Part shown: piece by piece, positions 541 to 58,517 of the stretch
Layout: every line of letters begins with the position of its first letter
How positions within the stretch are numbered: the first letter of the stretch is position 1
Assembly (NCBI GenBank): GCA_902774265.1
Contig: CACYHR010000012.1
Coordinates: forward strand, 1 to 59,664
Direction: 5' to 3'
DNA length: 59,664 nt
Source of the DNA: an uncultured Eubacteriales bacterium
Lineage (GTDB): Bacteria; Bacillota; Clostridia; Peptostreptococcales; Anaerovoracaceae
Translations under genes and position numbers: made by a program
Notes under the pieces: generated by a model
The model's input: the letters and a program-made list of their open reading frames with translations, nothing else
Told to the model about the DNA's origin: nothing
The model's database searches: none

Positions 541-655
541 TCCGGAGGAAGCATTTACAGACACCGGGAGCTTCAGCTCCTGAGAGCATCAGTGGGGGAT
601 TGTTACCCACCACTGATGGTCGAAAATGGAACCCGCACATCCGGTGTCTGTTATA
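541..655 (+). repeat. Dispersed structured repeat, copy A
   Basis: This is a copy of the seven-member family. Arms ACAGACACCGG (557-567) and CCGGTGTCTGT (641-651) close a long stem. Inside lie the hairpins GAGCTTCAGCTC and CATCAGTGG...CCACTGATG. The GC-rich terminal hairpin (CCCGCCGCC...GGCGGG in other copies) is deleted here, leaving ACCCGCACATCC. The repeat's right end abuts the stop codon of the acyl carrier protein gene. Confidence 0.85.
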
Positions 656-657
656 AT

Positions 658-879
658 CTACTCTGCATGGTTCTCAATATATTCCACAAGGTCTCCGACA
701 GTGATCATTTTCAGAACATCATCATCGGTTATCTCTATATCAAACTCATCCTCTATCTCTCCGATTATCGAAATGACATCAAGCGAAGTTAGCAGCAGAT
801 CATCTGCGAACGTTGATTCGTTTGTGATTTCCTCTTTTTCTGTATATTTGCTGAGTATCTCCGTTACTTTATTAAACAT
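658..879 (-). CDS. Acyl carrier protein
   Basis: A 73-residue acyl/peptidyl carrier protein. The phosphopantetheine attachment serine is in DDLLLTSLDV, followed by the helix II pattern [17 protein letters not shown] and helix [18 protein letters not shown]. Length and acidity fit the family. Start: AAGGAG lies about 8 nt before the ATG. It is the last gene of the minus-strand biosynthetic cluster and the only intact ACP of three; the other two (near 8.2 and 8.7 kb) are broken copies with a very similar core. It probably carries the acyl or peptidyl intermediate used by the cluster's ligases and condensation protein rather than serving housekeeping fatty-acid synthesis, but that is inferred from context. 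Confidence 0.9.
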   Translation of the reverse strand: MFNKVTEILSKYTEKEEITNESTFADDLLLTSLDVISIIGEIEDEFDIEITDDDVLKMITVGDLVEYIENHAE

Positions 880-890
880 CTTTTTTCTCC

Positions 891-1085
891 TTAATTAATT
901 TTTTTCAACGAAACGCACCCGCGCAGCTGATTATGGATGCGAACCAGCTCGTTAGCTGCAGCCTGCAGCTCGGCAACCGGTATCTGACGCGGTATTATAA
1001 CACTCCCTGTAAGGAGCGCACACTGACCGGCACCTGTTTTATCCGTGAAATAAAAGAACCCCTGCTCGCCATACAAATTATGCAT
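891..1085 (-). pseudogene. N-terminal fragment of a condensation-domain protein
   Basis: A 64-codon frame with a good ribosome binding site (AGAAGGAG, 8 nt before ATG). Its residues GAGQCALLTGSV and ELQAAANELVRIHNQLR align with the N-terminus of the intact condensation-domain protein at 3307-4608 (GLGQACLLCGSA, EMQRAANEIVRINDSLR). It stops right after this block and so lacks the HHxxxD active-site motif. It sits between the exporter and the ACP gene. Most likely it is the remnant of a second condensation gene truncated by deletion; a functional small protein is less likely. Confidence 0.75.
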
Positions 1086-1218
1086 TTATTAATCTCCTTC
1101 TATATACTTATCCTTTCTGCCCTGAACTGACCTAAATCAGGAGTCGCAGATAAGGCTCCGGCTTTTGCCGTTTTAAACCCTAAGCTCATTCCAAAGGGCA
1201 TCGTCAGAATTGTATTTT

Positions 1219-3303
1219 TTATCTGTCAGTCATGCTGTTCTCCGAATCGTACTGCCTGCGTCTGAAGCTGAATGAGTGTACAATGAATCTGTCGAATGTC
1301 ATCAGAAATCCAGGAAGTATGAACAGGACAGCAAAGAGTGAGCAGAGAGTTCCGCGCCCGAGCAGCATACCGATCTGCGCTATTATTCTCTGACTCGAGA
1401 ATATACCGAGCAAAAATCCCATAACTGATACGGCCGTCGCCGAAGTCAGTATGGACACGGCCGTGTCGGATATTGTCTGCACGACACAGTCTTTAGGATA
1501 CAGTCCCAGCGTAAGGCGGTTCTCTCTGTACCTCTGTGTGAACAATATGGCATAATCGACCGTTGCGCCGAGCTGTACCGAACTGACGATCAGATAAGCC
1601 ATGTAGAAAAGCGGTGTGCCCGTTATCACCGAAATCGACATATTGAACCAGATAGCCGTTTCTATCGTCAGCACGAGAATAAACGGCAGCAGCAGATTTC
1701 TCATAGTAAGCAGCAAAACTATGAAGACGGACAGTATAGCGACAAGGTTTACCGTGATATTGTCGGATGTGATCACATTCTTCAAATCATAGACATTGAC
1801 TCCCTGCCCCACCATATAATATTCTCCGGGATAATACTTCTCCGCAGTATCATAGACATTCTGCACAAACGCAAATGTCTCTTCACTTTCAACGGGCAGC
1901 GCGACCGACAGGACGAGTCTGTCATATTCATCCGACTGCAGCTGGCTCGTCAGTGCATCCGGCAGAGCTTCAAACGGCAGCGCTTCTCCGATCACATCAA
2001 CAGGCGCTATTACTGATTTGATTTCAGGGAATTTTTTAAGTTCTCTTACAAATGCATGCTCATTTCCATTGTCGCCCCGCGGCACCATGATCACATAAGA
2101 ATCATTGTATCCGAATATTTCAAGTATCTTTTCGGAATCGCTTCCGCAGCGTGTATCCGTTCCGTAGATCTTCGACGAACCGTAGAGATAGTTATTGTTG
2201 ATGCTTCCCAGAAACGAAGGGACGATAGCAATAACGAACACTATCATCAGAGGCAGTGTAACCCTGCACACCAGTTTTCCCAGCTTTTCGAAAGACGGAA
2301 CAAATTTTCTATGCCGCGTTTTTTCCATCCATTTGTATGTATACAGAATCAGACCCGGCATGAATACCAGCGAGGTAAACAGGCTTATGGCAACTCCCTT
2401 TGAAAGTGCGAGGCCCAGATCTGCACCGATCAGGAACCGCATGGTCGCAAGAGCGATAAATCCGATTACCGTCGTAAGTCCGCTGGATAATATGGAAGAT
2501 GTGGACAGCTTGAGAGCCTCTTTCATTGCTTCTTCGGCCTCTGCATGCTGCCTGCATTCGTTGAATCTGTGTATCAGAAAAACCGAATAGTCGAGAGCTA
2601 CCGCCATCTGCAGTATCATTCCCGAGGAATTGGTAACAAATGATATCTTGCCGAATATCAGATTCGTACCTGCATTCAGCACTACCGCAATACCGAGTCC
2701 GATCATTACAACAACAGGCTCTACCCATGATGTCGTTGTGATTATCAGTATGAAAAAGAGGAAAACAACGGAAATAAGAGTTATTATCAGGACCTCTTTG
2801 ACAGTATTGATGGTGGCAACAACTGTCATTACCGCATTGCCGGACATCATATTGTCCTCCCCTATGAGATCATATATCTCAGGTATGGTCTGTATCTGCT
2901 TTTCTGCGTCCACAGTAAGCAAAAATGCCGCATTTCCATCCTTATAGTACGTTTCCCGCAGGCTGTCGGGATACATATCAAGCGGCATATTCAGAGGGAT
3001 CATGGAATCGAGCCAGGTGACGGCAACAACGCCGTCGACAGCCTCTAACTTCCTTTTGTACTCAAGTGCAGTCTTTCTGTCTGCATCTCTTATGACTACA
3101 CGGCAGTTAGGGATGTTCTCTCCGAATTCTTCGGTCATTACTTTGAGCGATGTAGTTGACGGTGAATCAGGAGGCAGATAGTTCATTATGTCATAATCAA
3201 CATAAACCTTTGTTGCGAGTACGGCGCAGACAGCAGCCGCTGCAACAAAAGCTGTCATAATCACTATTCTGTATCTGATCACCCAGCCGTAAAATCTGTC
3301 CAT
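1219..3303 (-). CDS. MMPL/RND-family exporter (HAE3-like)
   Basis: A 694-residue membrane protein with the duplicated RND architecture: one N-terminal membrane helix (about 13-32), an extracytoplasmic domain (to about 170), five helices, then a second helix plus extracytoplasmic loop (about 370-525) and five more helices. Family signatures are ALDYSVFLIHRF (236-247) and GATVDYAILFTQRY in the second half, as in MMPL lipid transporters. The stop codon of the condensation gene is 3 bp upstream of the ATG, so the two are translationally linked. In this cluster it probably exports the acyl or lipopeptide product. RND proteins of this type in Firmicutes act without an outer-membrane partner. The substrate is unknown. 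Confidence 0.9.
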   Translation of the reverse strand: MDRFYGWVIRYRIVIMTAFVAAAAVCAVLATKVYVDYDIMNYLPPDSPSTTSLKVMTEEFGENIPNCRVVIRDADRKTALEYKRKLEAVDGVVAVTWLDSMIPLNMPLDMYPDSLRETYYKDGNAAFLLTVDAEKQIQTIPEIYDLIGEDNMMSGNAVMTVVATINTVKEVLIITLISVVFLFFILIITTTSWVEPVVVMIGLGIAVVLNAGTNLIFGKISFVTNSSGMILQMAVALDYSVFLIHRFNECRQHAEAEEAMKEALKLSTSSILSSGLTTVIGFIALATMRFLIGADLGLALSKGVAISLFTSLVFMPGLILYTYKWMEKTRHRKFVPSFEKLGKLVCRVTLPLMIVFVIAIVPSFLGSINNNYLYGSSKIYGTDTRCGSDSEKILEIFGYNDSYVIMVPRGDNGNEHAFVRELKKFPEIKSVIAPVDVIGEALPFEALPDALTSQLQSDEYDRLVLSVALPVESEETFAFVQNVYDTAEKYYPGEYYMVGQGVNVYDLKNVITSDNITVNLVAILSVFIVLLLTMRNLLLPFILVLTIETAIWFNMSISVITGTPLFYMAYLIVSSVQLGATVDYAILFTQRYRENRLTLGLYPKDCVVQTISDTAVSILTSATAVSVMGFLLGIFSSQRIIAQIGMLLGRGTLCSLFAVLFILPGFLMTFDRFIVHSFSFRRRQYDSENSMTDR

Positions 3304-3306
3304 TTT

Positions 3307-4608
3307 TTATTTCTTCTTAAGTATATTTCTGAACGACAGCTTTGATTTGTTTGAGCTCTCGTTTTCCCCGTCTATCCTGTTCAGTATCTCTCCTGCTGAA
3401 ATGCTGTCATCTCTGATACCCTCAAGCAGTATGCGCGGCACCTCCGTCAGCATCCTGTTCGCTGATTTATCCGGATATTTGACATTATATCCATAGCGTA
3501 TACGCAGATTACCGGTTCCTCTGTCAACAAGCGTAAATATCATTACAACACCGTGCGCACCGCAGTAATACATCTGACATCTCGCGTCAGGAGCCGCATC
3601 AAGCCTTGCAGCCTCGTAGCTTATCCATACATCGTAAGGCATTTCCCTGAGTCCGAATTCAGTCGCTCCGGATTTTTCATGTCTGAGGCTTGCAAGCATG
3701 GATCTGCTTACAGAAGCGGTATTATCGGCAAACGATGCATCCATATCGCACTCTAGCAGTATAGGTGTACTGTTTACATACATTCCTGTGCTGTTTTTTT
3801 CGCGTATCCCGGTTCGGTTCAGCACTACGGAGCCTACATAAAACAGATCTCTGCGGAGTTCACGGCTCATCCATATCGCGGTTGCCGCCGAAAAAATATC
3901 GTAGCCGGTCACATTGTGATTTTTTATGTAGTCTCTTATCTCAGCGGTCTCTTCTTCGCTGAATTCATATTCGATGCTCTTGCCTTTTTTCGAAATGAGA
4001 GGTTTTTTGGAGAGAAGAGTCTTTTCATTCAGCCTTGCCTTTTCTTCTCTGAAAAATGCTTTTCCCTTTTCGAAACGCTTAGTGCTCTTAAAAGCGGCTT
4101 CACTTTCAACATGTTCACCAAAGCTGTATGCCTCAACTGTTTCGCCCTTCAGTATCCTGAAGAACTGGTTGCCGATCAGCATAACAGTCCACGCATCTGA
4201 GATAATATGATGTATCTTGAGTATCGCACCGTAAGCTCCCGGCATTTTGACAAGCTTCAATTCGAAGAGATCGTGCTCATCATCGATTTCAAGAACCTCC
4301 TGTCCGTATTTTTCTCCGTATCGGTCAAGCTCTTCAAAGCTGTTGAAATGCAGGACCTCGAATTCTCTTTCCCTGAAAGGTATGAACCTCTGCACCGGTT
4401 TGCCGTTCTCTTCCGTAATACGTGTGCGCAGACTGTCGTTTATGCGGACGATCTCGTTTGCAGCGCGCTGCATCTCCGAAATATCACATTCTCCTTCAAC
4501 TATCGCACTTCCGCACAGCAGACATGCCTGCCCGAGGCCGAGCCTGTGTCCGCCGTACATATACATCTGCATTTCCGTCAAATTATACGTCCTGATTTCT
4601 TCTGTCAT
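3307..4608 (-). CDS. Condensation-domain protein (NRPS C-domain/acyltransferase-like)
   Basis: A stand-alone condensation-type enzyme of about 433 residues. The signature HHxxxD appears as HHIISDAW at about 133-140. Such domains form amide or ester bonds between a carrier-bound acyl or aminoacyl donor and an acceptor. The second half has the FGLREMPYDVW and GTGNLRIRYGYN segments typical of the C-terminal subdomain. I chose the ATG at 4608; a GTG at 4620 overlaps the GGGAAGG ribosome binding site and is less likely. It lies between the GH3-family gene and the exporter. It probably works with the cluster ACP, but donor and acceptor cannot be read from the sequence. Confidence 0.85.
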   Translation of the reverse strand: MTEEIRTYNLTEMQMYMYGGHRLGLGQACLLCGSAIVEGECDISEMQRAANEIVRINDSLRTRITEENGKPVQRFIPFREREFEVLHFNSFEELDRYGEKYGQEVLEIDDEHDLFELKLVKMPGAYGAILKIHHIISDAWTVMLIGNQFFRILKGETVEAYSFGEHVESEAAFKSTKRFEKGKAFFREEKARLNEKTLLSKKPLISKKGKSIEYEFSEEETAEIRDYIKNHNVTGYDIFSAATAIWMSRELRRDLFYVGSVVLNRTGIREKNSTGMYVNSTPILLECDMDASFADNTASVSRSMLASLRHEKSGATEFGLREMPYDVWISYEAARLDAAPDARCQMYYCGAHGVVMIFTLVDRGTGNLRIRYGYNVKYPDKSANRMLTEVPRILLEGIRDDSISAGEILNRIDGENESSNKSKLSFRNILKKK

Positions 4609-4702
4609 CTTTCTGTTCACCTTCCCATTATCTTTATTAACTGCCGTTCACGGTTTTTTGCATCGCTGCTTTTGCCGGCCCGGCGGTTTTATCTGGATCG
4701 AT

Positions 4703-6316: not shown

Positions 6317-6548
6317 TGATTTAATTTCATCAAAGCGGTGTATCCTGCCGTATTCCGTATCTTTATTTTTCCTGATTATTTTTTTAAGAGTCCTGTCGCT
6401 GTAGTCCGACGCATTTTTGCTGATATGAAGATACTGTTTGCGGAAGGCTTTTCCAAGAATATGGCCCGACCAAAGGAGAGCAGCATTAACCCCTTTTTAC
6501 AATAATGTATAATTATCTTTCATAATTATGCCTTTTACCTTCCAAATA

Positions 6549-8197
6549 CTATTTTGCTTTTGATTTGTCCTGCTTGAGAAGATATCGCTTTATCTTCATA
6601 GTCGATGTCTTTTCGAACGGTATGTCACGTATCTTAGTATTGCCTATATTCTTATGCTTAGGCATGCTGCGGTTGAATTTCTTTATATCCTCTTCCAGGC
6701 GTATGCGGGCGTCAGAGAAATTCTCCTCGTCAAGATAGAATTCCGCTGTTATCTTTCCGTTTTCCTCATAACAGACGACATCCTTTACATACTCAAGTTC
6801 CTTCAGTTTCTGTTCAAGCTCCTCCGGCATAACGTTCTCACCGTTTGCCAGGATTATAAGGTTTTTCTTGCGTCCGGTTATGTACAGGAATCCGTCAGCA
6901 TCGAGTCTGCCGTAGTCTCCTGTCCTGAACCATTCACCGTCGAACGCCTCAGCTGTCGCTTCAGGATCCTTGTAGTACCCCTTCATCACATTGCTTCCGG
7001 CAACGCAGATCTCACCTATGCCGCGCCGGTCGGGATCTGCGATCTTAACTCTGTTGCACGGGAGCGGTTTGCCTACACTGCCGAATCGAAATTCATTGTT
7101 GCGGTTTACCGAAACGACAGGCGAACACTCTGTTATGCCATAGCCGCAGATTACATTTATACCCAGGGAATAAAGGCCCCTCTGCACGGCGGCATCAAGA
7201 GCTGCCCCGCCGCATATCATGAGCTCGAGCCTCCCTCCGAAATTTTCATGGATATTCCTGAATATCTGCCGTCTCCGGTCAACGCCAAGTTTCATGAGAA
7301 CATCACTCATGAACATTGTCCGCTTGAGCTTGCCGGTCATGCCTGCTCTTCGGGCATTGCTCCAGATACTGTTATACAGCATTTCAGCCATCATCGGTAC
7401 AGTCGAGACATTCTGAGGTCTGTTGTGCTGCAGGTCTTTGACTATGTGCCGCAGATTGCCGCTGATGTGCAGATCTGTAATATATATAAAAATCATAAGC
7501 ACCGCCGAAGCCCATGCGAAAGTATGATGCAGCGGCAGCAGGAGCTGCGTACTCTCACCGCCGGCGCACCTTCCGGTTGCAACCACATCACTTGTCAGGT
7601 TGCCGTGCGTGAGCATAACGCCTTTCATTTTTCCCGATGTGCCGGAGGTATAGACTATACTCGCAAGGTCATCTTCTGTGATGTCGATTTCGTCATAGAC
7701 ATTGTGTCCGGACTCCAGCAGTGTCTTTCCGCGCTCTGCATATACGTAAATATCATCTATCATGTAATATCTGACGCCGCTCAGATCACTGCATTTCTTC
7801 AATTCATCTGTAACGCCGCTGCATTTGTCGGAATAAAATACAGCTCTGCATTCACAGTGCACCGCCAGATCCGTGATCTCATCGACCTTTAATCCCCGGT
7901 CCAAGGTACAGCGACATTACCGCTGTTCATAACCGCAAGAAAGCTCAGGATCCACTCCGTAGAGTTTTCTCCTATCAGAGCTATATTGGCACCACTGAAG
8001 CCCTGATCGAGCAGGAATTCGCCTGCACCGCGCACAAGATCACTGACTTCTTCGAATGTCAGCGGAATGTCGTTCTTGCGGCCTCTGTAAAGGGCCGTAA
8101 CATCCGCTCCGCGATCCTTACCGTTCTGCACCAGCTCGCGCAGCGTCCGCAGATCCGGTATATCATAATATGGATATCCTTTATCTTTGTGCGTCAT
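6549..8197 (-). pseudogene. AMP-dependent acyl/aryl ligase, split by a frameshift
   Basis: An ANL-superfamily ligase of about 549 residues in two overlapping frames. The first frame (8197 down to 7889) is the N-terminus and ends NSGNVAVPWTGD-stop. The second (from about 7904 to 6549) continues LDRGLKVDEI and contains the P-loop YTSGTSGKMKGV, the YGITECSP motif, the hinge WFRTGDYGRLD and the C-terminal catalytic lysine region STMKIKRY. Family alignment expects VAVPLDRG, so one base, probably a T in CCTTGG near 7900, is missing. Everything else looks intact. It probably activates a carboxylic acid and loads it on the ACP. A recent frameshift mutation or a sequencing error are both possible. The decayed ACP copy at 8205-8396 stops 7 nt upstream. 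Confidence 0.85.
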
Positions 8198-8204
8198 TTA
8201 TGAT

Positions 8205-8396
8205 CTACCCCGCGTGGTTTTCCAGATACTTCACAAGGTCCCCGACAGTAATCATACCCAAAACATCCTCATCAGATATTTCTATGTCGAACTCATCTTC
8301 TATGTCGCCGATTATCGAAATGACATCAAGAGAAGTGAGCATGAGGTCATCTGCAAACGTTGTGCGGCTGCCTAAGATTCTGCTCGTAGTAAAGAT
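8205..8396 (-). pseudogene. Decayed acyl carrier protein copy 2
   Basis: The minus strand encodes the ACP core with serine site [10 protein letters not shown], then [18 protein letters not shown] and a C-terminus ending at a TAG (8205-8207). The first 20 or so residues expected from the intact copy at 658-879 are replaced by unrelated codons, an in-frame TGA sits at 8397-8399, and there is no usable start codon. It is 5'-truncated and immediately precedes the ligase gene, where an ACP would make sense as the ligase's partner. Confidence 0.8.
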
Positions 8397-8681
8397 TCAA
8401 CTTTTAACTTATCTTCTCAGTTAATATGATGATCTCATCTGACATAACGCGAACTTCAGACAGTATGCACAGGTGTATGCGTATAATTGTTATAGCACAA
8501 CACAGCTCTTTACACAGAGCTGCCATATGATCCCGGTATCCTGATAATGTGATATTGATATCATTTATTTATCAGCTGACTTATCGGCCGCAAAAGTTGA
8601 TTTTACGCAGTAATTTTAGCATAACAATATCTATTTTTGAACAAAAATAGATAAAGCTTACCTCTGTGCGTATTCTATGAT
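8397..8681. other. Gap between two ACP pseudogenes
   Basis: No gene is seen. A perfect AT-rich hairpin at 8629-8652 (ATCTATTTTTG, AA, CAAAAATAGAT) follows the 3' end of ACP copy 3 in its reading direction and may end its transcript. The remainder resembles no neighbouring gene that I can recognise. Confidence 0.5.
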
Positions 8682-8901
8682 TTATCTTGCATGATTTTCC
8701 GGATAATTCACAGGATTTCCGACAGTAATCATACCCAGAACATCCTCATCGGATATTTCTATATCTTCTATATCGAACTCATCTTCTATGTCCCCGATTA
8801 TCGAAATGACATCGAGAGAAGTGAGCATGAGGTCATCTGCAAAAGCTGATTCGGCTGTAATGCTTTCTTACGTATATTTGCTGAGTATTTCAATTATACA
8901 T
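8682..8901 (-). pseudogene. Decayed acyl carrier protein copy 3
   Basis: A third ACP. A ribosome binding site (GGAGAA) and an ATG at 8901 are kept, but the frame breaks after three codons (ATG TAT AAT TGA). In the shifted frame IEILSKYT is followed by a TAA, then [20 protein letters not shown] and [17 protein letters not shown]. It also carries a small internal duplication (FDIEDIEIS instead of FDIEIS) and ends in NPVNYPENHAR rather than [11 protein letters not shown]. Several independent lesions indicate real decay, not a single sequencing error. Confidence 0.8.
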
Positions 8902-13060: not shown

Positions 13061-13205
13061 ACTGTGTATCTTTCTTAATTCGGTATTTTCTATCGCGTTC
13101 TGATTCATCCTGCGATCCGGGTCGATAGCTGAATTACGATCCCGACAACTTATTCTATCCGCGGTGAGCAGCATACGCAAGCGAAAGAGAGAATATGTGC
13201 TATAA

Positions 13206-13364
13206 TAACAGACACCGGATGTCCCCCGCCTCTTAGGCGGCGGGTTCCGTTTTCGACCATCAGTGGTGGGTAACAATCCCCCACTGATGCTCTCAGGAGC
13301 TGAAGCTCCCGGTGTCTGTTGACGGCGTCGCTCGCTCCAATCAAGCGACTTTGCTCCTGGTTGA
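13206..13364 (-). repeat. Dispersed structured repeat, copy B
   Basis: An inverted copy of the family lying in the region between divergent apbE and the NusG-II gene. It keeps both outer ends (TAACAGACACCGG at the left; TTTGCTCCTGGTTGA at the right), the GC hairpin GCCGCC/GGCGG, and the CATCAGTGG hairpin. Compared with copy G it lacks the ACTTATCGGAGG...TTCCGACC block and part of the left-end hairpin. It creates a false N-terminal extension of apbE. Confidence 0.85.
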
Positions 13365-13429
13365 GTACGGCACCGATGGAGTGTGATCGATATTAACGAC
13401 ACAGCTACGATGGAATGTTCTGAGATGAT

Positions 13430-20112: not shown

Positions 20113-20196
20113 TATAACAGACACCGGATGTCCCCCGCCTCTTAGGCGTCGCTCGCTCCAATCAAGCGAGCTTGTTGGAGCTTTGCTCCTGGTTGA
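20113..20196 (-). repeat. Dispersed structured repeat, copy C (internal deletion)
   Basis: An 84-bp derivative. Both outer ends are kept (TATAACAGACACCGG on one side, GGAGCTTTGCTCCTGGTTGA on the other), but the whole middle is lost, joining CCCCCGCCTCTTA directly to GGCGTCGCTCGCTCC. It lies between the DUF4956 gene and the carbohydrate-binding lipoprotein gene. Confidence 0.85.
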
Positions 20197-20225
20197 ATCA
20201 GGTGACTGACCTTAGTTATTCCGGC

Positions 20226-22913: not shown

Positions 22914-22947
22914 TATAACAGACACCGGGAGCTTTGCTCCTGGTTGA
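22914..22947 (-). repeat. Dispersed structured repeat, copy D (minimal form)
   Basis: A 34-bp derivative consisting only of the two family ends joined: TATAACAGACACCGG plus GAGCTTTGCTCCTGGTTGA. It shows that the outer ends of the family are defined and can persist without the interior. The remaining gap to 23159 has no gene. Confidence 0.8.
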
Positions 22948-23159
22948 AGTATGTTTCGGAGGCAAATCATTCTGTCAGAATTGGTGACAGATGAACACGA
23001 CTCATTCAATTGCCGGTTTTTATTCATACCGTAATGAACAGAATTCCTTCAATATGTATGTTTGTATGTTTTTTGCCGAGAACCGTGTTTCGCTATCCCG
23101 TCTGATTGGATCCGTTTCGGAAAATCTGCCTGATTGAAGGCTGCGGGTCTTCTTTGGGA

Positions 23160-25467: not shown

Positions 25468-25790
25468 GAATTCACAACTGTGCATCCTAAGGATTTTTCG
25501 AAATGCGGTTCAATATGGTTTTCATAATAATCAGTATGATTGTTTCAGTGAATAAAATATATCATATTTCCTTTGATTTCTTAATTTATCTGTTGATAAA
25601 TCTCTTCTCGCAACTTATTCGCCCCATTACTTTGTTCCGATTATCACATTCAAACCTTAACTATAACTTAATCCTTTACAATCCGCGTAGAAATTTACGT
25701 CTGTAATACATCAGCTATCAGGTTATCAGCAATGTCCGCCATTCCTCGTGAGAGGGGATTTTTGCGTTATCCACATGCATTTCAGCCCAC
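25468..25790. other. AT-rich gene-free stretch
   Basis: Strongly AT-rich. The small open frames here (for example 25503-25706) lack ribosome binding sites and protein-like composition. It may hold the promoter of the two-component operon. Confidence 0.4.
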
Positions 25791-25931
25791 TTGATTGGAG
25801 TGAGCGACGCCGTCAACAGACACCGGGAGCTTCAGCTCCTGAGATCGTCGGTCGGGGATTGATACCTGCCACCGACGGTCGAATATGGAACCCGCCGCCT
25901 AAGAGGCGGGGGACATCCGGTGTCTGTTATA
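25791..25931 (+). repeat. Dispersed structured repeat, copy E
   Basis: Starts TTGATTGGAGTGAGCGACGCC, then the closing arms CAACAGACACCGG and CCGGTGTCTGTT around hairpins GAGCTTCAGCTC, CGTCGGTCGGGG...CCACCGACGG and CCCGCCGCC...GGCGGG. The second hairpin differs in sequence from copies A, B and G while keeping pairing (CGTCGGT/ACCGACG instead of CATCAGT/ACTGATG). Those paired changes support a selected RNA or ssDNA structure. Confidence 0.85.
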
Positions 25932-26021
25932 TGGATGCTTAATGATCGTCCGATTCTTTCCCTCTTTATTAGCATTTTCCTGTCAATAATTGATTTTTTC
26001 TTTGTTTTTCTTTGTATTTCT

Positions 26022-26065
26022 GACAAAAGTGGATAAATTGCAGGATTTCATGCACCGATTGTTTG
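26022..26065 (+). repeat. Short repeat shared with PD-(D/E)XK gene leaders, copy 1
   Basis: GACAAAAGTGGATAAATTGC and the following ATTTCATGCACCGATTGTTTG closely match segments at 52688 and 54008 that precede the intact and broken PD-(D/E)XK genes. No such gene follows here, so it is an orphan leader. Confidence 0.7.
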
Positions 26066-26272
26066 CCAAATTTTCGATTCAGTCCTAAACTCTTCACATG
26101 ATAAGGAAATACATAATTATTACAAGCAAAATACCGGCAGCACAATTTCAAATGTTTGCATTTTTTCGCTAATCGGACCAATTCAGGCCGCTAATTCACA
26201 GAAGCGAAGGATAAGATTCGCTTCATTCCAAAGCTTATCAATTACTATTAATCTAAAGAAAGGAGTCACGTT

Positions 26273-44684: not shown

Positions 44685-44893
44685 ATTGGAGTGAGCGACG
44701 CCGTACTTATTGGATGAGCTCAGACTCCGGAGATAAACGTTTCCGACCTTACGGCAATGTCGTATAATCCGGAGGAAGCATTTACAGATGCCGGGAGCTT
44801 CAGTTCCTGAGAGCATCGGTCGGGATTGACACCCGTCACCGACAGTCGAATTTGGAAGCCGCCTTAGGCGGGGGACGTCCGGCGTCTGTTATA
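44685..44893 (+). repeat. Dispersed structured repeat, copy F (longest, most diverged)
   Basis: 209 bp, beginning ATTGGAGTGAGCGACGCCG and ending GGCGTCTGTTATA. It uniquely joins the block ACTTATTGGATGAGCTC...TTTCCGACC to TCCGGAGGAAGCATTTACAG, so it shows the order of the full element. One frame through it reads EINVSDLTAMSYNPEEAFTD followed by AGSFSS and a stop. Substitutions inside stems are mostly paired, for example CATCGGTCGG with CACCGACAG. Confidence 0.8.
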
Positions 44894-52553: not shown

Positions 52554-52687
52554 ACTTCCTACACTGCCTTTCGTAATATTTCAAGCCTCAGTTTGCTGAA
52601 TTTTCAGTCCTTTCCTGAGATTAACTATCTTTGTCCGTTAGTAGAGTGTAATTATACACGCAAATACATGTACAACTGTGTATTTTT
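52554..52687. other. Promoter region of the transglutaminase gene
   Basis: No gene seen between the transglutaminase start and the short repeat before the PD-(D/E)XK gene. It should hold divergent promoters for both. Confidence 0.4.
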
Positions 52688-52766
52688 GACGAAAGTGGAT
52701 AAATTGCAGGATTTCATGCAGCGATTGTTCGACAGATCTCGAAAAACGCGCTATCATTTCTGCGAG
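52688..52766 (+). repeat. Leader repeat of PD-(D/E)XK gene, copy 2
   Basis: GACGAAAGTGGATAAATTGC followed by a stretch ending TATCATTTCTGCGA. Nearly the same 79 bp occur at 54008-54086, and the first part at 26022. It begins about 235 bp before the intact gene's start codon. Confidence 0.75.
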
Positions 52767-52923
52767 AGAATATATCAGGATCAAAACTGATCATTATCAG
52801 GCTTATTTAGTAGGCTTTGATGATGATCATTTTTATTTGCCGTATGTTAGCTCAGATAATCGTCATCTCAACCTTGTTTTCCGTAGTTTTTATTATTCGG
52901 ATTTATTGAAAGGAGAAGAGAAT

Positions 52924-53910
52924 ATGTGTAATACTAATAGCAGAAATAGCGCTGTAAATACGCCGTACGACAACGCATACAGGACGCTGCTCGACAGTTG
53001 TCCGAGACTTATTATCCCTCTTATAAATGAGATATTCGGCGAGAACTATACCGGACAGGAAAGGATCGTCCAGTCACCAAACGAGTTCTTTATCCTTGAT
53101 GAGGGCGACAAGAAGATCGTTACTGATTCTGTTTTCACGATCTACGGCGATCATGTAGGACATTATCATATAGAGTGCCAGAGCAATCCGGATGGCAGCA
53201 TGCTGATACGCATGTTCAAATACGACGCACAGATTGCTGTCAGGTACTCTTCGGTAATCGAAAACACACTTACAGTGAGATTTCCGAATTCCGCTGTTCT
53301 TTATCTCAGAAGCACAGTGAACACACCTGATACATCTGTTATCCAAATCGAAACTCCCGACGGCAGCATTTCATATGAGGTGCGCAATCTAAAGATCAAA
53401 GAATACAGCATCGAAGAGATCTTCAGGAAGAATCTGTTATTACTGATACCGTTTCATATTTTTGTATTCGAGAGCAGACTTGAAGACATTGAATCAGACG
53501 AAGATGCCCTTTTACAGCTCAAGTCATATTATTCTTGCATCAGGATCGAACTGGATGAATTGGCAGCTGAGGGCAGTATAAGCGAATTTGAAAAACAGAC
53601 GATAATTGAAATGTCCAATAGCGTAGTTGACTCACTTGCTCGTAAATATGAGCATGTCAGGAAAGGAGTTGGTAATGTAATGGGCGGAATTATACTTGAT
53701 ACCCAAGCTAAAAGAATTCTTAATCAAGGCAGAGAAGAAGGTAGAGCGGAAGGCCTGGAAGAAGGCATAGATATCGGTGAAGATCGGATGGGTGCGCTTT
53801 ACATCTATCTGGAAGATCTTTGTCGATCAGATGAATATAAAGCAGCAATACTTGACCCTGAACTACGCCGCAAGCTATATGAGGAAATGGATCAGTCTCA
53901 TAAATACTGA
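52924..53910 (+). CDS. Rpn/PD-(D/E)XK nuclease family 'transposase'
   Basis: 328 residues from the ATG at 52924 (GGAGAAG about 6 nt upstream); the frame to 52837 is not protein-like. N-terminal restriction-like nuclease core: NAYRTLLDSCPRLIIPLINEI, FILDEGDKKIVTDSVFTIYG and HYHIECQSNPDGSMLIRMFKY, where D, ExQ and the strand order fit the PD-(D/E)XK fold of Rpn/YhgA-like proteins. The C-terminus is helical with an EEGRAEGLEEG coil. Such genes are often multicopy in clostridia. Transposition by them is not proved; they cause DNA cleavage and recombination in E. coli. Confidence 0.85.
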   Translation: MCNTNSRNSAVNTPYDNAYRTLLDSCPRLIIPLINEIFGENYTGQERIVQSPNEFFILDEGDKKIVTDSVFTIYGDHVGHYHIECQSNPDGSMLIRMFKYDAQIAVRYSSVIENTLTVRFPNSAVLYLRSTVNTPDTSVIQIETPDGSISYEVRNLKIKEYSIEEIFRKNLLLLIPFHIFVFESRLEDIESDEDALLQLKSYYSCIRIELDELAAEGSISEFEKQTIIEMSNSVVDSLARKYEHVRKGVGNVMGGIILDTQAKRILNQGREEGRAEGLEEGIDIGEDRMGALYIYLEDLCRSDEYKAAILDPELRRKLYEEMDQSHKY

Positions 53911-54007
53911 TTCTCGTCTTATCAATTCGAAATTAGCTGTTTTTTAAACTACTTTTAGACTACATCGTCAACAGTTTTATGCGTTTTTGTATATTTTTGA
54001 ATTTTTG

Positions 54008-54086
54008 ACGTAAGTGGATAAATTGCAGGATTACATTCAGCGATTATTAATCAGATTTCGAAAAACGCGTTATCATTTCTGCGAAC
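54008..54086 (+). repeat. Leader repeat of PD-(D/E)XK gene, copy 3
   Basis: GACGTAAGTGGATAAATTGC through TTATCATTTCTGCGA, matching 52688-52766. It precedes the truncated gene at 54151-54489, as the other copy precedes the intact gene. Confidence 0.75.
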
Positions 54087-54150
54087 AAGTATTTCACTAG
54101 TGAAGATGATCAATATCAAGCTCAGAATCATACTTTGATAATGAAAGCGA

Positions 54151-54489
54151 GATGTCAGATGAGATGCGGGCTTTTCTCGATTATCTCTGCGACCATGCAC
54201 CTGCAAGCGATCTGACCCGTGATATCGAAGCGCACATCGCACAGGCCAAGCAAACAAAGTATGGGAGGACAGCTATATGACTTTACGCGAATATTATGCT
54301 GAAGAATTCGAAGAAGCCGAAGAACGGATAACAGAGCGTGTGACAGCAGAAACGACTCTGAAAGAACGTACAGAGACTGCTCGTGACATGTTGGCCGATG
54401 GCAAACCAATTGAAGAGATCATTAAGTACTCAAGACTGTCACTTGAAGAGGTTCAGGCTATCACGGATAGTTTGATTAATACGAAATAA
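54151..54489 (+). pseudogene. 3' fragment of a PD-(D/E)XK family gene with frameshift
   Basis: The first frame reads SDEMRAFLDYLCDHAPASDL and continues to KQTKYGRTAI-stop; the second (54277 onward) reads MTLREYYAEEFEEAEERITE and ends ARDMLADGKPIEEIIKYSRL...SLINTK. In intact members of the family these blocks are one continuous C-terminus. The nuclease core is absent, so a deletion removed it and a frameshift separates the rest. The 70-residue second frame has a GGGAGGA site and could still be translated. Confidence 0.75.
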
Positions 54490-54621
54490 ACCATTATATT
54501 TCCTCTATAAAAACTGGAGAAGTAGGATTTATGTGATCCATACTCCTCAGTTCATTTTTTATTCTTTATTACCCGAATCTTCAACTATTAAAATAGCGCC
54601 ATACTTGGCACATCATGCAAA

Positions 54622-54651
54622 ACAGGCTTCTCCATTATGGAGAAGCCTGTA
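54622..54651 (-). terminator. Hairpin in the 3' region of the second Ig-like gene
   Basis: AACAGGCTTCTCC, ATTAT, GGAGAAGCCTGT. The 60 bp that follow toward the gene (GCATCAATTTATCTTGTTTC and on) are nearly the same as those at 40475-40545. Confidence 0.6.
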
Positions 54652-54734
54652 TGCATCAATTTATCTTGTTTCTGAATTAAACTATCAATAAATCGATATG
54701 ACGGTTAATTGTTTAACTTGTTTAAAAGATTATG

Positions 54735-56378
54735 CTATTTAATCTTGATTGTGTAAGTCTTTTCTGCTGAAGCAGCCTTGTATCCATTGCCTGCAGCAGT
54801 CTTAGCCTTAACAACGAGCTTAACCTTAGCACCCTTCTTCAGACCCTTCTTAACAGTAACTACACCTGTTTCATCGATGCTAACCTTACCATTTGAAGAA
54901 GTTGCTGAGAAAGTGATTGCATTACCGGAATCAGCAACAGCTGCTACCTGGAAAGTCTTAGCTTTAGCAAGTTTCTTAGTCTTCTTCTTAGCCTTGAAGG
55001 ACTTAGTTGTAACACCACTGAATGTGATGTCATCAAGCTTAGTGTTTTCAACATCTTTTTCAACTACCTGTACAGAAACTTCATTCGCACCCCAACGAAG
55101 TCCGAAATCACTTCTATAGGAATCATCTGCATCATTCCCGTAATTCTCGAACAGGCTCTTATATGTTTTGGCAGCAGTTGTTTCACTGTAGTTCTTATTA
55201 GACTTTATAGTCCATGTGTATACAGAGCTTTCTGAAGCACTCTTTGTAACTTCAATAGTATATTTTTCCTTGAAATATGCCATTGCCGCCTCAGCATCAG
55301 CGTCACAAATTCCATTTACAGCAATGTAGTCATATGGATCAGCTCCAGCAGCTACCGGTGTCAGGTTATTTGACTCGTGTGCCATGTTCTTGAAGCCAAA
55401 AGTGAATTTATTGGCGCTATAAACTCTGACTGTCATATACGTATTATGAGGACCTTTTGTAGAATCCTTATATGTCGCTGTAACCTTTACATTATATGTG
55501 CCTGCATCCTTAACACTTACTGTACCTGGATTATATTTGCCTGTTGTAGCGTCCTGAAGCGCATAAGTATAAGTCCATCCATCAACAGAACTATTAACTA
55601 TTGTGTGTGCAGCTCCATCATATGTCATAGACATATTTTCGCCCCATGCAACAGCCTTGTCTTTTTTCACTTCATCAAAATCGAACTTTGCAGCATTGTA
55701 GTCTAATGTAGCAGCCTGAACTGTAATTTCTTTTGCAGGAACCTCACCTACAAGACATTTTGCGAGCATTTCTCTTGTATCTGCAGAGACTGTTTCTCCC
55801 TCTACTTCAGTTGCTGGATTAATTACGGCTGTTACAGTCACTTTCTGCTCACCGAGATTCTCAGCATCAAATCCGGTATACTTATATGTGACAGTGAAAT
55901 ATTTAGCCCAATTAGTATTAATAAAAGGAACCGCATCAAAAGCTGTTTTATTGATCTTATCATTCAGCGATACATACAGATTTGTTGTGAGTCCTGCACC
56001 TGTCAGAGTTCCATCTGTCGTAGGATTCATCTTCATAAAGTTCGCTCTTGACCAGATAGTTGCTCCTGCAACCTCAGCATTTGCGAGGTCATAATAGAAG
56101 CCTCTATCATAGGACTCAAGTCTTTCAGGTGCTGGATTGTACTTATCATAATCTACATCAGCTGTTACTACACCATCAGACCAGGACCTTGCTATCTGCG
56201 TGTAATTAGTATCCCCAATCTTTACAGATGTAAATGTATCGTTCCACTTTCCGTTCAGTTTCCAACCTTCTGGTGCTTTTTCTAATAAGCCATCATTTGC
56301 AAATGCCATTGTTGGCATGAATGTGAAAATCATCATTACTGCCAACAGGATGGCTACAACACTTTTGTGTTTTCTCAT
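54735..56378 (-). CDS. Secreted Ig-like (Big2-type) surface protein, paralogue 2
   Basis: 547 residues. Signal peptide nearly identical to paralogue 1 (MRKHKSVVAILLAVMMIFTF). The middle is diverged but shares a pattern of beta segments (YTAVITNS-like blocks versus FTSVKIGDTNYTQIARSW). The C-terminal Ig-like domain is again conserved (FQVAAVADSGNAITFSATSS, VSIDETGVVTVKKGLKKG). Start: AAAAAAGGAGAAAG before the ATG. No enzymatic motif or sortase signal. Diversifying duplicated surface proteins is a reasonable reading. Confidence 0.8.
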   Translation of the reverse strand: MRKHKSVVAILLAVMMIFTFMPTMAFANDGLLEKAPEGWKLNGKWNDTFTSVKIGDTNYTQIARSWSDGVVTADVDYDKYNPAPERLESYDRGFYYDLANAEVAGATIWSRANFMKMNPTTDGTLTGAGLTTNLYVSLNDKINKTAFDAVPFINTNWAKYFTVTYKYTGFDAENLGEQKVTVTAVINPATEVEGETVSADTREMLAKCLVGEVPAKEITVQAATLDYNAAKFDFDEVKKDKAVAWGENMSMTYDGAAHTIVNSSVDGWTYTYALQDATTGKYNPGTVSVKDAGTYNVKVTATYKDSTKGPHNTYMTVRVYSANKFTFGFKNMAHESNNLTPVAAGADPYDYIAVNGICDADAEAAMAYFKEKYTIEVTKSASESSVYTWTIKSNKNYSETTAAKTYKSLFENYGNDADDSYRSDFGLRWGANEVSVQVVEKDVENTKLDDITFSGVTTKSFKAKKKTKKLAKAKTFQVAAVADSGNAITFSATSSNGKVSIDETGVVTVKKGLKKGAKVKLVVKAKTAAGNGYKAASAEKTYTIKIK

Positions 56379-56703
56379 TTTCTTTCTCCTTTTTTGTTCT
56401 CCATAAAACGTGTTTGCGGTTCCCCGAAAACCGCTTTTTTTTGTCTGATTAAAATTTAAATATCGGCGGTCAAACTGTATTTAATTTTTAACCTCCTTCT
56501 TTAAATTCTTGCGGCGCATACCGTCAAATGTGCCGAATCAGAGCAGGCCATAGTTCGCCCTTCACAGTTGGTAGTTTAGCGCATTTCCCGCTATAAATCA
56601 AGCAAAAAATCCAAGTTTTGTTTAAATAAATGTGTTCTGTTTTTTGTACGGACTATATTAGCGATTTTTTGAAAAATCGTGCAATAAATCGCAATGCTCG
56701 TGT
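56379..56703. other. Upstream region of Ig-like paralogue 2
   Basis: No gene seen. It holds the leader and presumed promoter of the minus-strand gene; the palindrome at 56704-56728 marks its far end. Confidence 0.4.
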
Positions 56704-56728
56704 GTTATAGCGTTTATTGCGCTATAAC
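56704..56728. promoter_or_regulatory. Palindrome GTTATAGCG...CGCTATAAC, candidate operator (copy 2)
   Basis: Perfect 9-bp arms with a 7-bp spacer (TTTATTG), between Ig-like paralogue 2 and the Xre regulator gene at 56808, about 80 bp before the latter's start. The same arms occur at 42732-42750. Autoregulation by the Xre protein is plausible. Confidence 0.65.
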
Positions 56729-56807
56729 AACATTCTAAATCCCCAAATATGTTAATTCTCTATATTGGTTAATTTCTCTTTTTAGAAAACAAAGGCGGGG
56801 ATTAGAT

Positions 56808-57062
56808 ATGCCAAGACCAAGAAAGAAGAACTCAGAACGTGATATTTCTCCGTGGGCCAGGAAGATCCGCGATCTTCGTCTGGACAATGATCTGACGCAG
56901 CAGGCTGTTGCTGATTATCTGAATGTCAGTCAGAGAGTCTATGCGGATTATGAGCTGGGGAACGTGAGGATCCCGGTCGAGCATCTTCTCAGACTCTCAT
57001 ATTATTATCACGTAAGTATGGACTATCTTTGTGATCGGTCCAACGATACTGTTTCGTTCTGA
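56808..57062 (+). CDS. Xre-family helix-turn-helix regulator
   Basis: 84 residues. A basic start (MPRPRKKNSERDI) is followed by the HTH: KIRDLRLDNDLTQQAVADYL, with recognition helix SQRVYADYELGN and the terminal helix VEHLLRLSYYYHVSMDYLC. The ribosome binding site GGCGGGGA precedes the ATG. It lies between the shared palindrome and the convergent pyridoxamine kinase gene. The likely target is its own promoter and the Ig-like genes. Confidence 0.9.
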   Translation: MPRPRKKNSERDISPWARKIRDLRLDNDLTQQAVADYLNVSQRVYADYELGNVRIPVEHLLRLSYYYHVSMDYLCDRSNDTVSF

Positions 57063-57066
57063 GAAA

Positions 57067-57912
57067 TTATCTGCTCATTTCTATAAGCTGCGGTATTGTT
57101 GATTCGAAGTTGACGCCGTACCATTTTCTGGCAGGGTCTTTCATTGTTGCATCGATGGTATACGCGGTGTAGTCGGCAGCCAGTGTCATGGCTTCCTGCC
57201 ATGTCTTGCCGCGCATCAGTAAGCCGACGCAGGTGCTCGAGAAGAGGTCACCTGTTCCATGGAAAACTGCGTCTACTTTATCATTCTGGTACAGATAGTA
57301 CTCTCCGGTGAGACTATCTCTACCCATTATGCCGGTTTTTCCCGGAGTGAGCGAAACGCCTGTCAGGACATTTATACGTGCTCCCAGTTCTTCGAGTGCA
57401 GTCAGCATTTCCTTTATATATTGTTCATCATGCTCTTCGCGATATTCAAGGCCGGTCATCAGGGATGCTTCTGTGAGATTCGGCATTATGATGTCTGCAC
57501 AGGCACATAATTCGGTATTCTTTTTTACGTAATCCTTGTCGAATCCCGGATAGAGCTGCCCTCTGTCTCCCATTACCGGATCGACTATCCTTATCGTTCC
57601 TTCTTTGCCAAAGTCATTGAATATGCCCTTGACCAGATCTATCTGTTCGATTGTTCCGAGATATCCGGTATAGATCGCGTCGAATTCTATGCCCTGGCTT
57701 TTCCAGTGATTAGTGATCGGTGCTATCTGGTCAGTCAGATCTTTGAATGTGAAATCAGGGAATATCGTGTGTGTAGAAAGGAGCGCGGTCGGCAATATTA
57801 CTGTCTCCGAGCCGAGTGCCGAAATGATCGGCAGTGCTATAGTGATGGAACATCTGCCTACGCAGGAAATATCCTGTATTGTGAGGACTCTTTTTGTATT
57901 ATTCTCTATCAT
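57067..57912 (-). CDS. pdxY: Pyridoxamine/pyridoxal kinase
   Basis: 281 residues of the ribokinase-like PdxY/PdxK family, which phosphorylates pyridoxal or pyridoxamine in PLP salvage. Features: VLTIQDISCVGRCSITIALP (substrate loop), FDAIYTGYLGTIEQIDLVKG, IVDPVMGDRGQLYPGF, ADIIMPNLTEASLMTGLEY and the anion-hole/catalytic Asp region HGTGDLFSSTCVGLLMRG. A clear AGGAGG site is not seen. Its upstream region holds the array of five hairpins. The gene symbol could equally be pdxK. Confidence 0.9.
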   Translation of the reverse strand: MIENNTKRVLTIQDISCVGRCSITIALPIISALGSETVILPTALLSTHTIFPDFTFKDLTDQIAPITNHWKSQGIEFDAIYTGYLGTIEQIDLVKGIFNDFGKEGTIRIVDPVMGDRGQLYPGFDKDYVKKNTELCACADIIMPNLTEASLMTGLEYREEHDEQYIKEMLTALEELGARINVLTGVSLTPGKTGIMGRDSLTGEYYLYQNDKVDAVFHGTGDLFSSTCVGLLMRGKTWQEAMTLAADYTAYTIDATMKDPARKWYGVNFESTIPQLIEMSR

Positions 57913-57973
57913 AATTATTCATAATGCCGGACATCAAAATGTCTGTTGAAAATTTTTGAATTATATATTAGTT

Positions 57974-58309
57974 AGTAGTTCCTAAAAAAGAGATTACATG
58001 TTTAGTAACTACTGATATTCTTACTTGTTTTGCATATAGAAGGATTGAGTAGTTCCTACAACCTGAAAAGGCGGCTCAGTAACTACTTTTTATTCATCTA
58101 CACTGCCATCGGAAGTATTGCAGTAGTTCCTACAGTCTGAAAACGCGGTTCAGGAACTACTTTACATTCATCTGTATTACATTTTGAAGTAACAAAGTAG
58201 TTCCCGTAGTCTGGAATAGTCGTTCAGTAACTACTTTATATTCATCTTTATTGCTGTTGGAAGCGTTAAAGTAGTTCCTGCAGCTTGAAACAGCCTCTCA
58301 GGAACTACT
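57974..58309. repeat. Array of five 40-nt hairpins at 74-bp spacing
   Basis: Each unit starts AGTAGTTCC and ends AACTACT: 57974-58013, 58048-58087, 58122-58161, 58196-58235 and 58270-58309. Starts are exactly 74 bp apart and each hairpin is exactly 40 nt. Stems are 10 bp (AGTAGTTCCT/AGGAACTACT) or have one mismatch (AGTAACTACT). Loops differ but keep a CTGAAA-like core. The spacers are related (TTTATTCATCT...), so it is a degenerate 74-bp tandem repeat whose stems are conserved best. Confidence 0.92.
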
Positions 58310-58336
58310 TTTATCTTCTTATCTGTTATCAGATCT

Positions 58337-58517
58337 TCAACCAGGAGCAAAGCTCCAACAAGCTCGCTTGATTGGAGCGAGCGACGCCGTACTTATCGGA
58401 GGAGCTCAGCCTCCGGAGATCAATGCTTCCGACCCAGTGGGGGATTGTTACCCACCACTGATGGTCGAAAATGGAACCCGCCGCCTAAGAGGCGGGGGAC
58501 ATCCGGTGTCTGTTATA
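58337..58517 (+). repeat. Dispersed structured repeat, copy G (near complete)
   Basis: 181 bp from TCAACCAGGAGCAAAGCTCC to CCGGTGTCTGTTATA. It keeps the left hairpin (GGAGC, AAA, GCTCC), the block ACTTATCGGAGG...CTTCCGACC, the CACCACTGATG hairpin and the terminal CCGCCGCC/GGCGG hairpin. It lies between the 74-bp array and the ptb gene. The open frame through it shares the peptide IGGAQPPEINASD with copy F. Confidence 0.85.

Follow-up and report, generated by a model that had tools for sequence, protein, structure and literature searches.

Gene-free short DNA elements, almost all hairpin, copied to many sites in the genomes of ruminant-gut bacteria

The palindrome-associated transposable elements (PATEs) of Haloquadratum are transposase-free relatives of IS200/IS605 (PMC3119063). 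The element described here resembles them in its non-coding length, in having palindromes close to its termini but no terminal inverted repeats, and in the absence of target duplication, as well as in high copy number, core deletions and the insertion of copies into one another (PMC3119063). The ends of a PATE are matched by IS605-type transposons in its own host, whereas no transposon with the element's ends was found here, and a modular four-way junction with exchangeable arms, along with a separate module B, are features of the element that are not met in the parts of the PATE description drawn on here (PMC3119063).

Like the element, IS200/IS605 members such as IS608 and ISDra2 have a short fixed target at one end and subterminal hairpins (PMC6006769). 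They favour the lagging-strand template, while the element shows an orientation bias in two genomes and none in the window's own, and unlike them it contains no gene, has no Y1 partner in several carriers and shows no recognisable guide tetranucleotides, as far as the parts of that source used here allow the comparison (PMC6006769). The BOX elements of Streptococcus pneumoniae, seen as parasitic repeats that lack their own transposase, are likewise dispersed modular mosaics with an extensive fold (boxA, boxB and boxC there; A, B and C here), but the portion of the account consulted gives them terminal inverted repeats and target duplications, neither of which is seen in the element, a TT duplication aside (PMC3049150). 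REP/REPIN sequences, too, are hairpin repeats between genes, and they are linked to enzymes that process single strands, the RAYTs; the element lacks the GTAG foot that the consulted section describes, and the repeats that flank several RAYT-like genes of the genus are different ones (PMC8266576).

A modular repeat in one window and across a genus

The window, by which we mean the whole 59,664-nt stretch of DNA analysed, holds seven copies of a dispersed structured repeat, far above chance, which bears out the family proposed in a preliminary description. That description had also given all copies shared ends, and here the 3' half of the claim stands while the 5' half does not: CCGGTGTCTGTTATA closes 7/7 copies (five exact and two with one mismatch, against a mean chance expectation of 0.00 over 100 shuffles), whereas TCAACCAGGAGCAAAGC opens just 4/7 (three exact and one with one mismatch; chance expectation 0.00), so that both ends are common to four window copies only. 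Copies 541, 25791, 44685 and 58337 are on the + strand and copies 13206, 20113 and 22914 on the - strand. The 5' parts of copies 541, 25791 and 44685 are decayed or truncated, and the actual start of copy 541 lies near 489.

The element consists of a 54-nt hairpin module with conserved sequence, a four-way-junction module and an optional module B, and the window copies combine these in various states of completeness. The first (489..655, +) has a decayed 5' module and a remnant of module B, followed by a four-way-junction module from which hairpin 3 has been deleted, and ends in TTATA. The four-way-junction module is complete in two short forms, one with a small deletion in its 5' module (13205..13365, -) and one truncated at the 5' side (25784..25930, +). 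In the third copy (20114..20197, -) an internal deletion leaves hairpin 3 and the 3' end immediately after the 5' module, and all that remains of the fourth (22915..22948, -) is its first 21 nt fused to the 3' end. The sixth (44685..44892, +) is an older long form made of a 5' remnant, module B and a diverged four-way-junction module; its module B (44704..44782, +) belongs to a separate 75-nt repeat family. The seventh (58336..58516, +) joins a 5' module, the first 45 nt of module B and the 3' two thirds of the four-way-junction module, after which comes the A of TTATA. Its 54-nt conserved 5' module (58336..58389, +) comprises the TTCAACC end and a GCTCCA...TGGAGC hairpin. At its right boundary stands TTATA (58513..58517, +), of which TTAT is judged to be pre-existing target and not element from two empty sites elsewhere in the genus, with TT assignable to either side. 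This copy is absent in the nearest relative, G058, where the intergenic region is too diverged for an exact empty-site reading.

A search of the window's own genome (G000, an assembly rated 90.8% complete) for more copies gave 84 matches to the 3' end. Matches occur in 17 of 47 same-genus genomes, at 0 to 84 per genome, and the named relatives with the element are goat- and sheep-gut Mogibacterium and Clostridiales MAGs. These are gene-free short DNA elements, almost all hairpin, that have been copied to many sites in ruminant-gut bacterial genomes. Several G000 contigs end inside copies, which makes the family a probable cause of breaks in assemblies of gut genomes like these. A distant BLAST search of a plasmid collection gave no element match, and we found no description of the repeat family in the literature searched, which is not proof of its absence from print.

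Insertion sites and neighbouring genes

The sequence directly after the shared 3' end had been described as a variable flank, and this did not survive a count of the following bases. In a 0.82-Mb sample of G000, with 3'-end matches taken without demanding TTAT, TTAT follows 29 of 34 matches, TTCA two, and other bases three, two of those three lying in no element. Two empty sites in relatives locate the insertion. A copy in G078 (L198) is absent at the same place in G053 and G067, where TTATAT is already present, and G067 lacks a copy that G078 and G086 have in common, while already having TTATTTTCC at that place. At both sites, insertion was directly before a pre-existing TTAT or, read on the other strand, directly after ATAA. 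A third relative, G050, has at the first site a stretch starting TTTTAAACC that may be an element remnant, so the empty state there could partly represent excision and not the ancestral condition; the boundaries are unchanged by this. A search from the G000 copy L005 gave relatives that match on one side only, and hence no empty site.

Target duplication longer than TT is absent at both empty sites, and a TT duplication is compatible with the data. Scanned over offsets, 63 copies gave only a weak excess of target duplications over shuffled flanks in 1000 settings (best 2-mer 12 vs 6.1, 3-mer 5 vs 0.9). Among the loci fetched at the time of counting, 5 of 113 left ends lie directly behind an older 3' end (at most two mismatches), where shuffled flanks predict 0.56. 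These nested re-insertions use one site again, so that newer copies sit between the older copy's end and TTAT. An analogy to integron attC sites, considered since the element starts with TT and ends with G, was given up, as the base preceding the cut shows no bias towards G.

Copy direction differs between genomes, as judged with local gene strand as a proxy for replication. In named genomes, 59 matches, one of them a Dojkabacteria hit taken as chance, gave 56 scorable cases, and in 50 of these the ATAA strand has the direction of most genes nearby. The same holds for 21/23 copies of RUG11913 and 12/13 of SIG258, where scorable copies are most numerous outside G000, and another orientation count gave 27/28. 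The window's own genome has no such bias (30 to 22, two of these 52 being window copies read a second time, on the opposite strand). The gene beside the TTAT end reads towards the element, into the ATAA strand, in 50/62 copies of a sample rich in best-scoring copies and read with a crude ORF caller; this bias is gone in a larger own-genome sample and stays in named genomes. With a similarly crude gene caller, TTA is the TAA stop of the neighbouring gene in 13/63 copies, two of the 13 being one copy common to two species.

Conserved pairing in the folded element

The element is too short to code and has no gene inside and no terminal inverted repeats, and both folds and pairing analysis place palindromes close to its termini. 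The stems named in the preliminary description do exist in fold predictions on single copies: the full-length own-genome copy L008 folds at a z of -8.97 as RNA and -8.33 as DNA on the other strand, and L032, from a relative, at -5.01. Covariation analysis shows that the pairing is conserved. In the A/C part, 8 of 52 pairs are changed on both sides against 2.9 in shuffles, none of 500 shuffles reaching 8; counting further standard pair types, the shuffles are not exceeded (198/500 reach the observed value). Stem changes that break Watson-Crick pairing are 14 GT vs 12 AC in 41 unique sequences, small numbers that leave aside a single fixed G-T pair accounting for 36 GT cells, so the stems show no RNA-strand wobble bias.

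In the outer stem of the four-way-junction module, a fixed AA from the element faces the target's TT. The module B family (75 nt, separate from A/C) has the same design, a fixed AA/TT outer pair (18/18 twice) beneath a covarying stem, and two covariation measures for module B do not exceed shuffles. Some copies have lost whole hairpins or arms, and three diverged copies keep the four-way junction (z about -10) with unrelated palindromes for two of its arms. Three genomes contain four minimal copies, each about 56 nt long, with nearly one common internal junction; these copies lack the AA strand, so the proposed target pairing may be dispensable.

How the element may move

The reading we favour, at a probability of roughly 0.55, is that of a non-autonomous modular element moved in the manner of PATEs, as folded single-stranded DNA, by an HUH-type enzyme acting in trans. 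To the observed insertion facts it would add an enzyme, most likely an HUH-type single-strand transposase, that reads the fold of the ATAA strand and cuts after ATAA. The target may be chosen partly by base pairing with the element, since the outer junction stem sets the fixed AA opposite the target TT. If this is how the element moves, insertions should fall preferentially on the lagging-strand template, and this would account for the near-uniform copy direction relative to the local gene majority in RUG11913 and SIG258. Landing at stop codons and in 3' regions would add a strong hairpin to the transcript, any effect on the host being secondary. A bolder version, which we consider unlikely, would make this a new class of single-stranded DNA element in which the folded element reads its target through the junction AA that faces TT in TTAT, the cut lies within the extended helix, the other arms are structural and exchangeable for unrelated palindromes, and two families (A/C and B) within one genus are served by an undescribed enzyme.

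No mobilising enzyme was found among the families searched, Y1 (PF01797), Y2/IS91 and IS110 (PF02371). G000 has five Y1 matches, on contigs C53, C8, C31 and C48, with no element end nearby, and Y1 is absent from the carriers G076, G052, G063, G078 and G086, where loss or supply from unassembled or foreign DNA is possible. The Y1 loci of relatives gave no convincing match to module A or C (best C E 0.44), and module B matches lie near three of them. Of 10 carriers tested for Y2/IS91, 7 lack it, and the three that have it show no match to any element module in its vicinity. By eye, no IS608-like guide tetranucleotide is evident beside the hairpins, and the outer stem's AA/TT pairing may take its place.

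The serious rival, doubtful as we think it, is a MITE-like double-stranded element moved at TT by a recombinase or transposase, for instance a serine recombinase whose core spans 2 bp or a DDE enzyme that duplicates the 2-bp TT. Because element and target both start with TT, a change from N/TT/AT to N/TT(CAACC..CTG)TT/AT fits both empty sites equally well, and neither the balanced orientation in the window's own genome nor the carriers without Y1 would trouble such an enzyme. It would not, however, lead us to expect the strong orientation bias of RUG11913 and SIG258, or conserved interior folds with a fixed AA opposite TT; the element also has no inverted ends, and IS110, present in 5 of 12 tested carriers, is absent from the other seven (G076, G063, G078, G085, G055, G074 and G018). 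A structured functional RNA, or a 3'-UTR element, that spread through duplication and was retained for stabilising or ending transcripts would account for the covarying stems and for neighbouring genes reading into the ATAA strand (the 50/62 of the best-scoring-rich sample), but that neighbour bias is missing in the larger own-genome sample, and exact empty sites, copies without whole arms, a range of 0 to 84 matches within one genus, stems without wobble asymmetry and the lack of any Rfam family above threshold make it improbable. We hold it very improbable that these are REP/REPIN-type repeats served by the RAYT-like gene that G000 does possess: REPs are intergenic hairpin repeats too, in the part of the source used (PMC8266576), but no element copy lies within 1.5 kb of that gene, the consensus has by eye no conserved GTAG foot, and several RAYT-like genes of the genus are followed, again by eye, by other inverted repeats (GACGGTTC../..GAACCGTC). 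The element-rich G076 has no Y1 match at all, and the sole one of G051 adjoins a tnpB.

The preliminary description had suggested a relic of an IS200/IS605-TnpB element with an omegaRNA-like guide at its 3' end. Much of the IS200/IS605 likeness holds (the repeats are dispersed, structured and mobile, with conserved pairing, a short fixed target, no inverted ends and no clear target duplication), whereas the omegaRNA/TnpB part is contradicted on the features tested, and we find a guide-RNA relic the hardest of these readings to credit. TnpB is common in the genus (23 of 47 genomes), and the series GGAACCC-hairpin-GGGGAC bears a superficial likeness to a TnpB guide scaffold, but TnpB tails of relatives end in another sequence: 21 readable 3' tails have, by eye, other hairpins, mostly ending in TTCAA or TCAC, and the ends of the IS200 and TnpB elements fetched from the genus differ from the element's. 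As that description had noted, neither tnpA nor tnpB is in the window, the window's contig having no Y1 or TnpB match. Of the two outcomes it named as refuting its reading, one holds as far as searched, no transposase being joined to the repeat, and the other, a lack of conserved pairing, does not. A tnpB ending in the repeat was not found: PF07282 has 0 matches in G000 (at 90.8% completeness), and 30 TnpB loci, of 50 places listed in relatives, gave no continuous match in BLAST against seven element forms, only short weak ones, the best (E 0.002) in opposite orientation to the TnpB gene. The flank is the fixed target TTAT and not a free guide, and stem changes show no RNA-strand wobble preference. 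Rfam gave no element match at gathering score, and permissive scans gave sub-threshold matches only, the best over an element at E 0.91; a tmRNA in L008 is a neighbouring gene.

The GGAACCC-hairpin-GGGGAC likeness alone is no evidence for a TnpB guide RNA. The logic of insertion can now be read from the empty sites, and the concrete predicted cut site, ATAA^C, offers a handle for finding the enzyme. If the folded strand does pick its target by pairing, the element would be a further example of structure-guided insertion, and it is one that also alters the 3' ends of genes.

Copies and modules of the family

All seven copies reported in the preliminary description are present in the window at their positions (starting at 541, 13206, 20113, 22914, 25791, 44685 and 58337; three lie on the minus strand). 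The two ends it considered common to all of them fared unequally: the 3' end is found in 7/7 (a single mismatch in two of them, none in the other five) and the 5' end in 4/7, with a chance expectation in shuffled sequence of 0.00 for either. The copies vary mainly by loss or gain of entire hairpin parts. In the window's own genome (G000; 3.26 Mb, 110 contigs, rated 90.8% complete, the window being its entire contig C12), the 22-base 3' end has 84 matches with at most 2 mismatches, and its reversed control has none. Such matches occur in 20 of 349 family genomes, 17 of them among the 47 of the same genus; of the three outside it, G018 holds full copies, and the matches in G276 and G313 are unconfirmed. 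An exact 20-mer scan of named genomes returned 54 stretches, all but one from Clostridiales/Mogibacterium MAGs, several with record titles naming goat or sheep gut; the single Dojkabacteria record is taken as a chance match. RUG in genome names presumably denotes rumen genomes, and identical flanks equate G076 with RUG11913 and G051 with SIG258.

Read in the direction used by the preliminary description, the usual short form measures about 170-182 nt and joins module A, a 54-nt 5' hairpin module of conserved sequence (TTCAACC...GACGCCG), to module C, a four-way junction in which three hairpins are enclosed by an outer stem, AACAGACGCCGG/CCGGCGTCTGTT. Many G000 copies carry module B, whole or partial, between the two, and this is a separate 75-nt family that stands without A or C at 13 fetched loci in 11 other genomes, in tandem at two of these loci. 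A 0.82-Mb sample of G000 was made up of the window and 0.76 Mb in stretches taken from eight contigs, each picked for a known copy. Module matches form 58 clusters in it: both ends are present in 18, the 3' end alone in 15, the 5' end alone in 15 and neither end in 10. These totals include two window copies read again on the other strand and some clusters cut by contig or stretch ends. Module B alone makes up six of the 58. At three loci, L195 (G084), L209 (G087) and L185 (G058), other material lies within hairpin 2 or replaces module C, as if the element's arms can capture outside DNA.

Other repeats share the window. A tandem array directly upstream of copy 7 (57974-58311) has four units of about 74 nt, each of which forms a hairpin, GTAGTTCC...GGAACTAC, and similar hairpins occupy the orthologous place in G058. 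A stretch built around GAC..AAGTGGATAAATTGCAGGATT.CAT recurs upstream of ORFs at 25982-26073, 52648-52739 and 53967-54058, and a similar sequence flanks an IS91-like element on its right in L277, a fetched stretch of G000. On the minus strand, three related stretches that by eye resemble acyl carrier protein genes (620-828, 8167-8375 and 8644-8861) adjoin AMP-binding and NRPS-like genes, with copy 1 directly behind the first of them.

Conservation of the fold

Across 18 full or near-full copies, the paired positions of modules A and C hold a standard pair in 93.0% of 917 cells, with two-sided changes at 8 of 52 pairs against 2.9 in shuffles, a value reached by 0 of 500. This structure beats all slid versions of itself. 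Of five measures, only further pair types falls within the shuffled range, its value being reached in 198 of 500; on the other four, every shuffle stays below the observed value. Module B is paired in 95.5% of 359 cells, and its covariation score of 0.237 versus 0.098 shuffled is reached by 0 of 500 shuffles, one stem position showing GC, CG, UA, AU and one UG; two of its five measures (two-sided-change pairs and further pair types) are not above shuffles. The two outermost pairs are nearly fixed as AA/TT, in 17/17 and 16/17 copies for A/C and in 18/18 twice for B.

Three diverged copies, L193 and L194 (G084) and L209 (G087), retain module A, hairpin 1 and a four-way junction with unrelated sequences as hairpins 2 and 3, and as DNA folds their C modules score z = -10.06, -10.87 and -10.16, respectively. 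The best-supported hairpin of module A, GCTCCA...TGGAGC, is kept by eye with two-sided changes in L193 and L209, in which the alternative GGAGC/GCTCC pairing is disrupted or less stable. These three copies were omitted from the A/C covariation and wobble counts because they could not be aligned there. In a selected RNA, wobble on its own strand is expected. Module C in 41 unique copies, out of 47 chosen by length and stem criteria, has 50 G-T cells, 12 A-C cells and 88 pairing in neither way; one fixed pair supplies 36 of the G-T cells, leaving 14 G-T against 12 A-C. Since own-strand wobble is not in excess, it seems, on these small numbers, that the fold matters at the DNA level or is maintained by palindrome-copying errors.

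Insertion site and orientation

Two exact empty sites were read. At the first, a copy in G078 (L198) is missing from G053 and G067, where 13 and 14 bases, respectively, run from a shared hairpin to TTATAT; the filled site reads 13 bases, then the element, then TTATAT. A third relative, G050, has here a stretch starting TTTTAAACC that may be an element remnant, and therefore excision is also possible at this site. At the second, a copy common to G078 and G086 is missing from G067, which reads ..AAT|TTATTTTCC. Because of these two sites, TTAT is assigned to the target and lies outside the element; the element's leading TT may or may not be a duplicate of the target TT. In the 0.82-Mb sample, with TTAT not required, it follows 29 of 34 3'-end matches, and TTCA follows two; two of the remaining three lie outside any element. 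At L306, the TTCA opens a further copy that went into this very site and runs off the end of the contig; at L284, it begins a short remnant, TTCAA..CGTCTG, with TTAT after it. Left ends lie directly behind an older copy's end in 5 of 113 cases (at most 2 mismatches; 0.56 expected). A search for inverted ends found none, and a duplication scan of the flanks gave weak excesses only. For 13 of 63 copies, the adjacent TTA serves as the stop codon of the neighboring gene; one copy present in two species accounts for two of the 13.

On the opposite strand, the insertion reads ATAA^CAGACGCCGG..., in which the AA ahead of the presumed cut could pair with TT inside the element. If this pairing lengthens the junction's outer stem, then the fold of the element would itself select the target through base pairing. 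Against such a choice stand four minimal copies, each about 56 nt, from three genomes (L196 and L325 in G078, L321 in G082 and L326 in G052), which have nearly one internal junction in common, lack the TT for outer-stem pairing and may be mobile.

For orientation, a home-made codon-usage script supplied the gene calls, and the strand carrying most genes locally served as a proxy for the leading strand. The ATAA strand runs along the local gene majority in 50 of 56 scorable cases among 59 matches in named genomes, and in 27 of 28 with both ends found. In G000, the count is 30 to 22. The bias is as expected if the element enters the lagging-strand template as a single strand, but it would also arise if older copies in one orientation had been selected against. 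The result cuts both ways, with a bias in the named genomes and none in G000.

Candidate partner enzymes and comparable elements

Searches for TnpB, Y1, Y2/IS91 and IS110 identified no partner enzyme. The preliminary description had read the repeat as an ωRNA-like relic of an IS200/IS605-TnpB element; TnpB was not found in G000 and is present in 23 of the 47 genus genomes, with tails that differ from the element where read, and a TnpB guide RNA is rejected as its identity on the features tested. Y1 occurs in 24 of the 47 and was not found in several carriers, including G076, which has 27 pattern matches to the element. G000 has one full-length RAYT-like gene plus fragments, and other inverted repeats stand beside several RAYT-like genes of the genus. 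By eye, those after RAYT-like genes in L238, L250 and L061 have GGGGACGG / CCGTCCCC cores and are perhaps TIRYT-type flanks as outlined in PMC6006769. The ends of the genus IS200 elements are unlike those of the element; in L224, L226, L231, L232, L233 and L234, IS200 is apparently inserted right after terminator-like hairpins with T runs (by eye). Y2/IS91 was detected in three of 10 carriers, without a module match nearby, and IS110 in five of 12. Each of L275, L276 and L277 (in G051, G064 and G000) has one IS91-like match, with an integrase-like second ORF (by eye) directly upstream of the Y2 transposase gene.

Palindrome-associated transposable elements (PATEs) of Haloquadratum, as described in PMC3119063, have no inverted ends, palindromes near their termini and no target duplication, are too short to code, and have ends related to IS605-type transposons. 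The element shares the first four traits but, as far as searched, not the last. The account of IS200/IS605 in PMC6006769, with a tetranucleotide flanking the left end, hairpins and lagging-strand preference, fits its insertion anatomy. BOX elements are the closest modular analogue, although they have inverted ends and duplications (PMC3049150), neither of which is seen in the element. The element appears to work like an IS200/IS605-derived PATE and may be one. The family is real and sizeable; its members are mobile and non-autonomous, have a structured, modular build and insert at a defined target.
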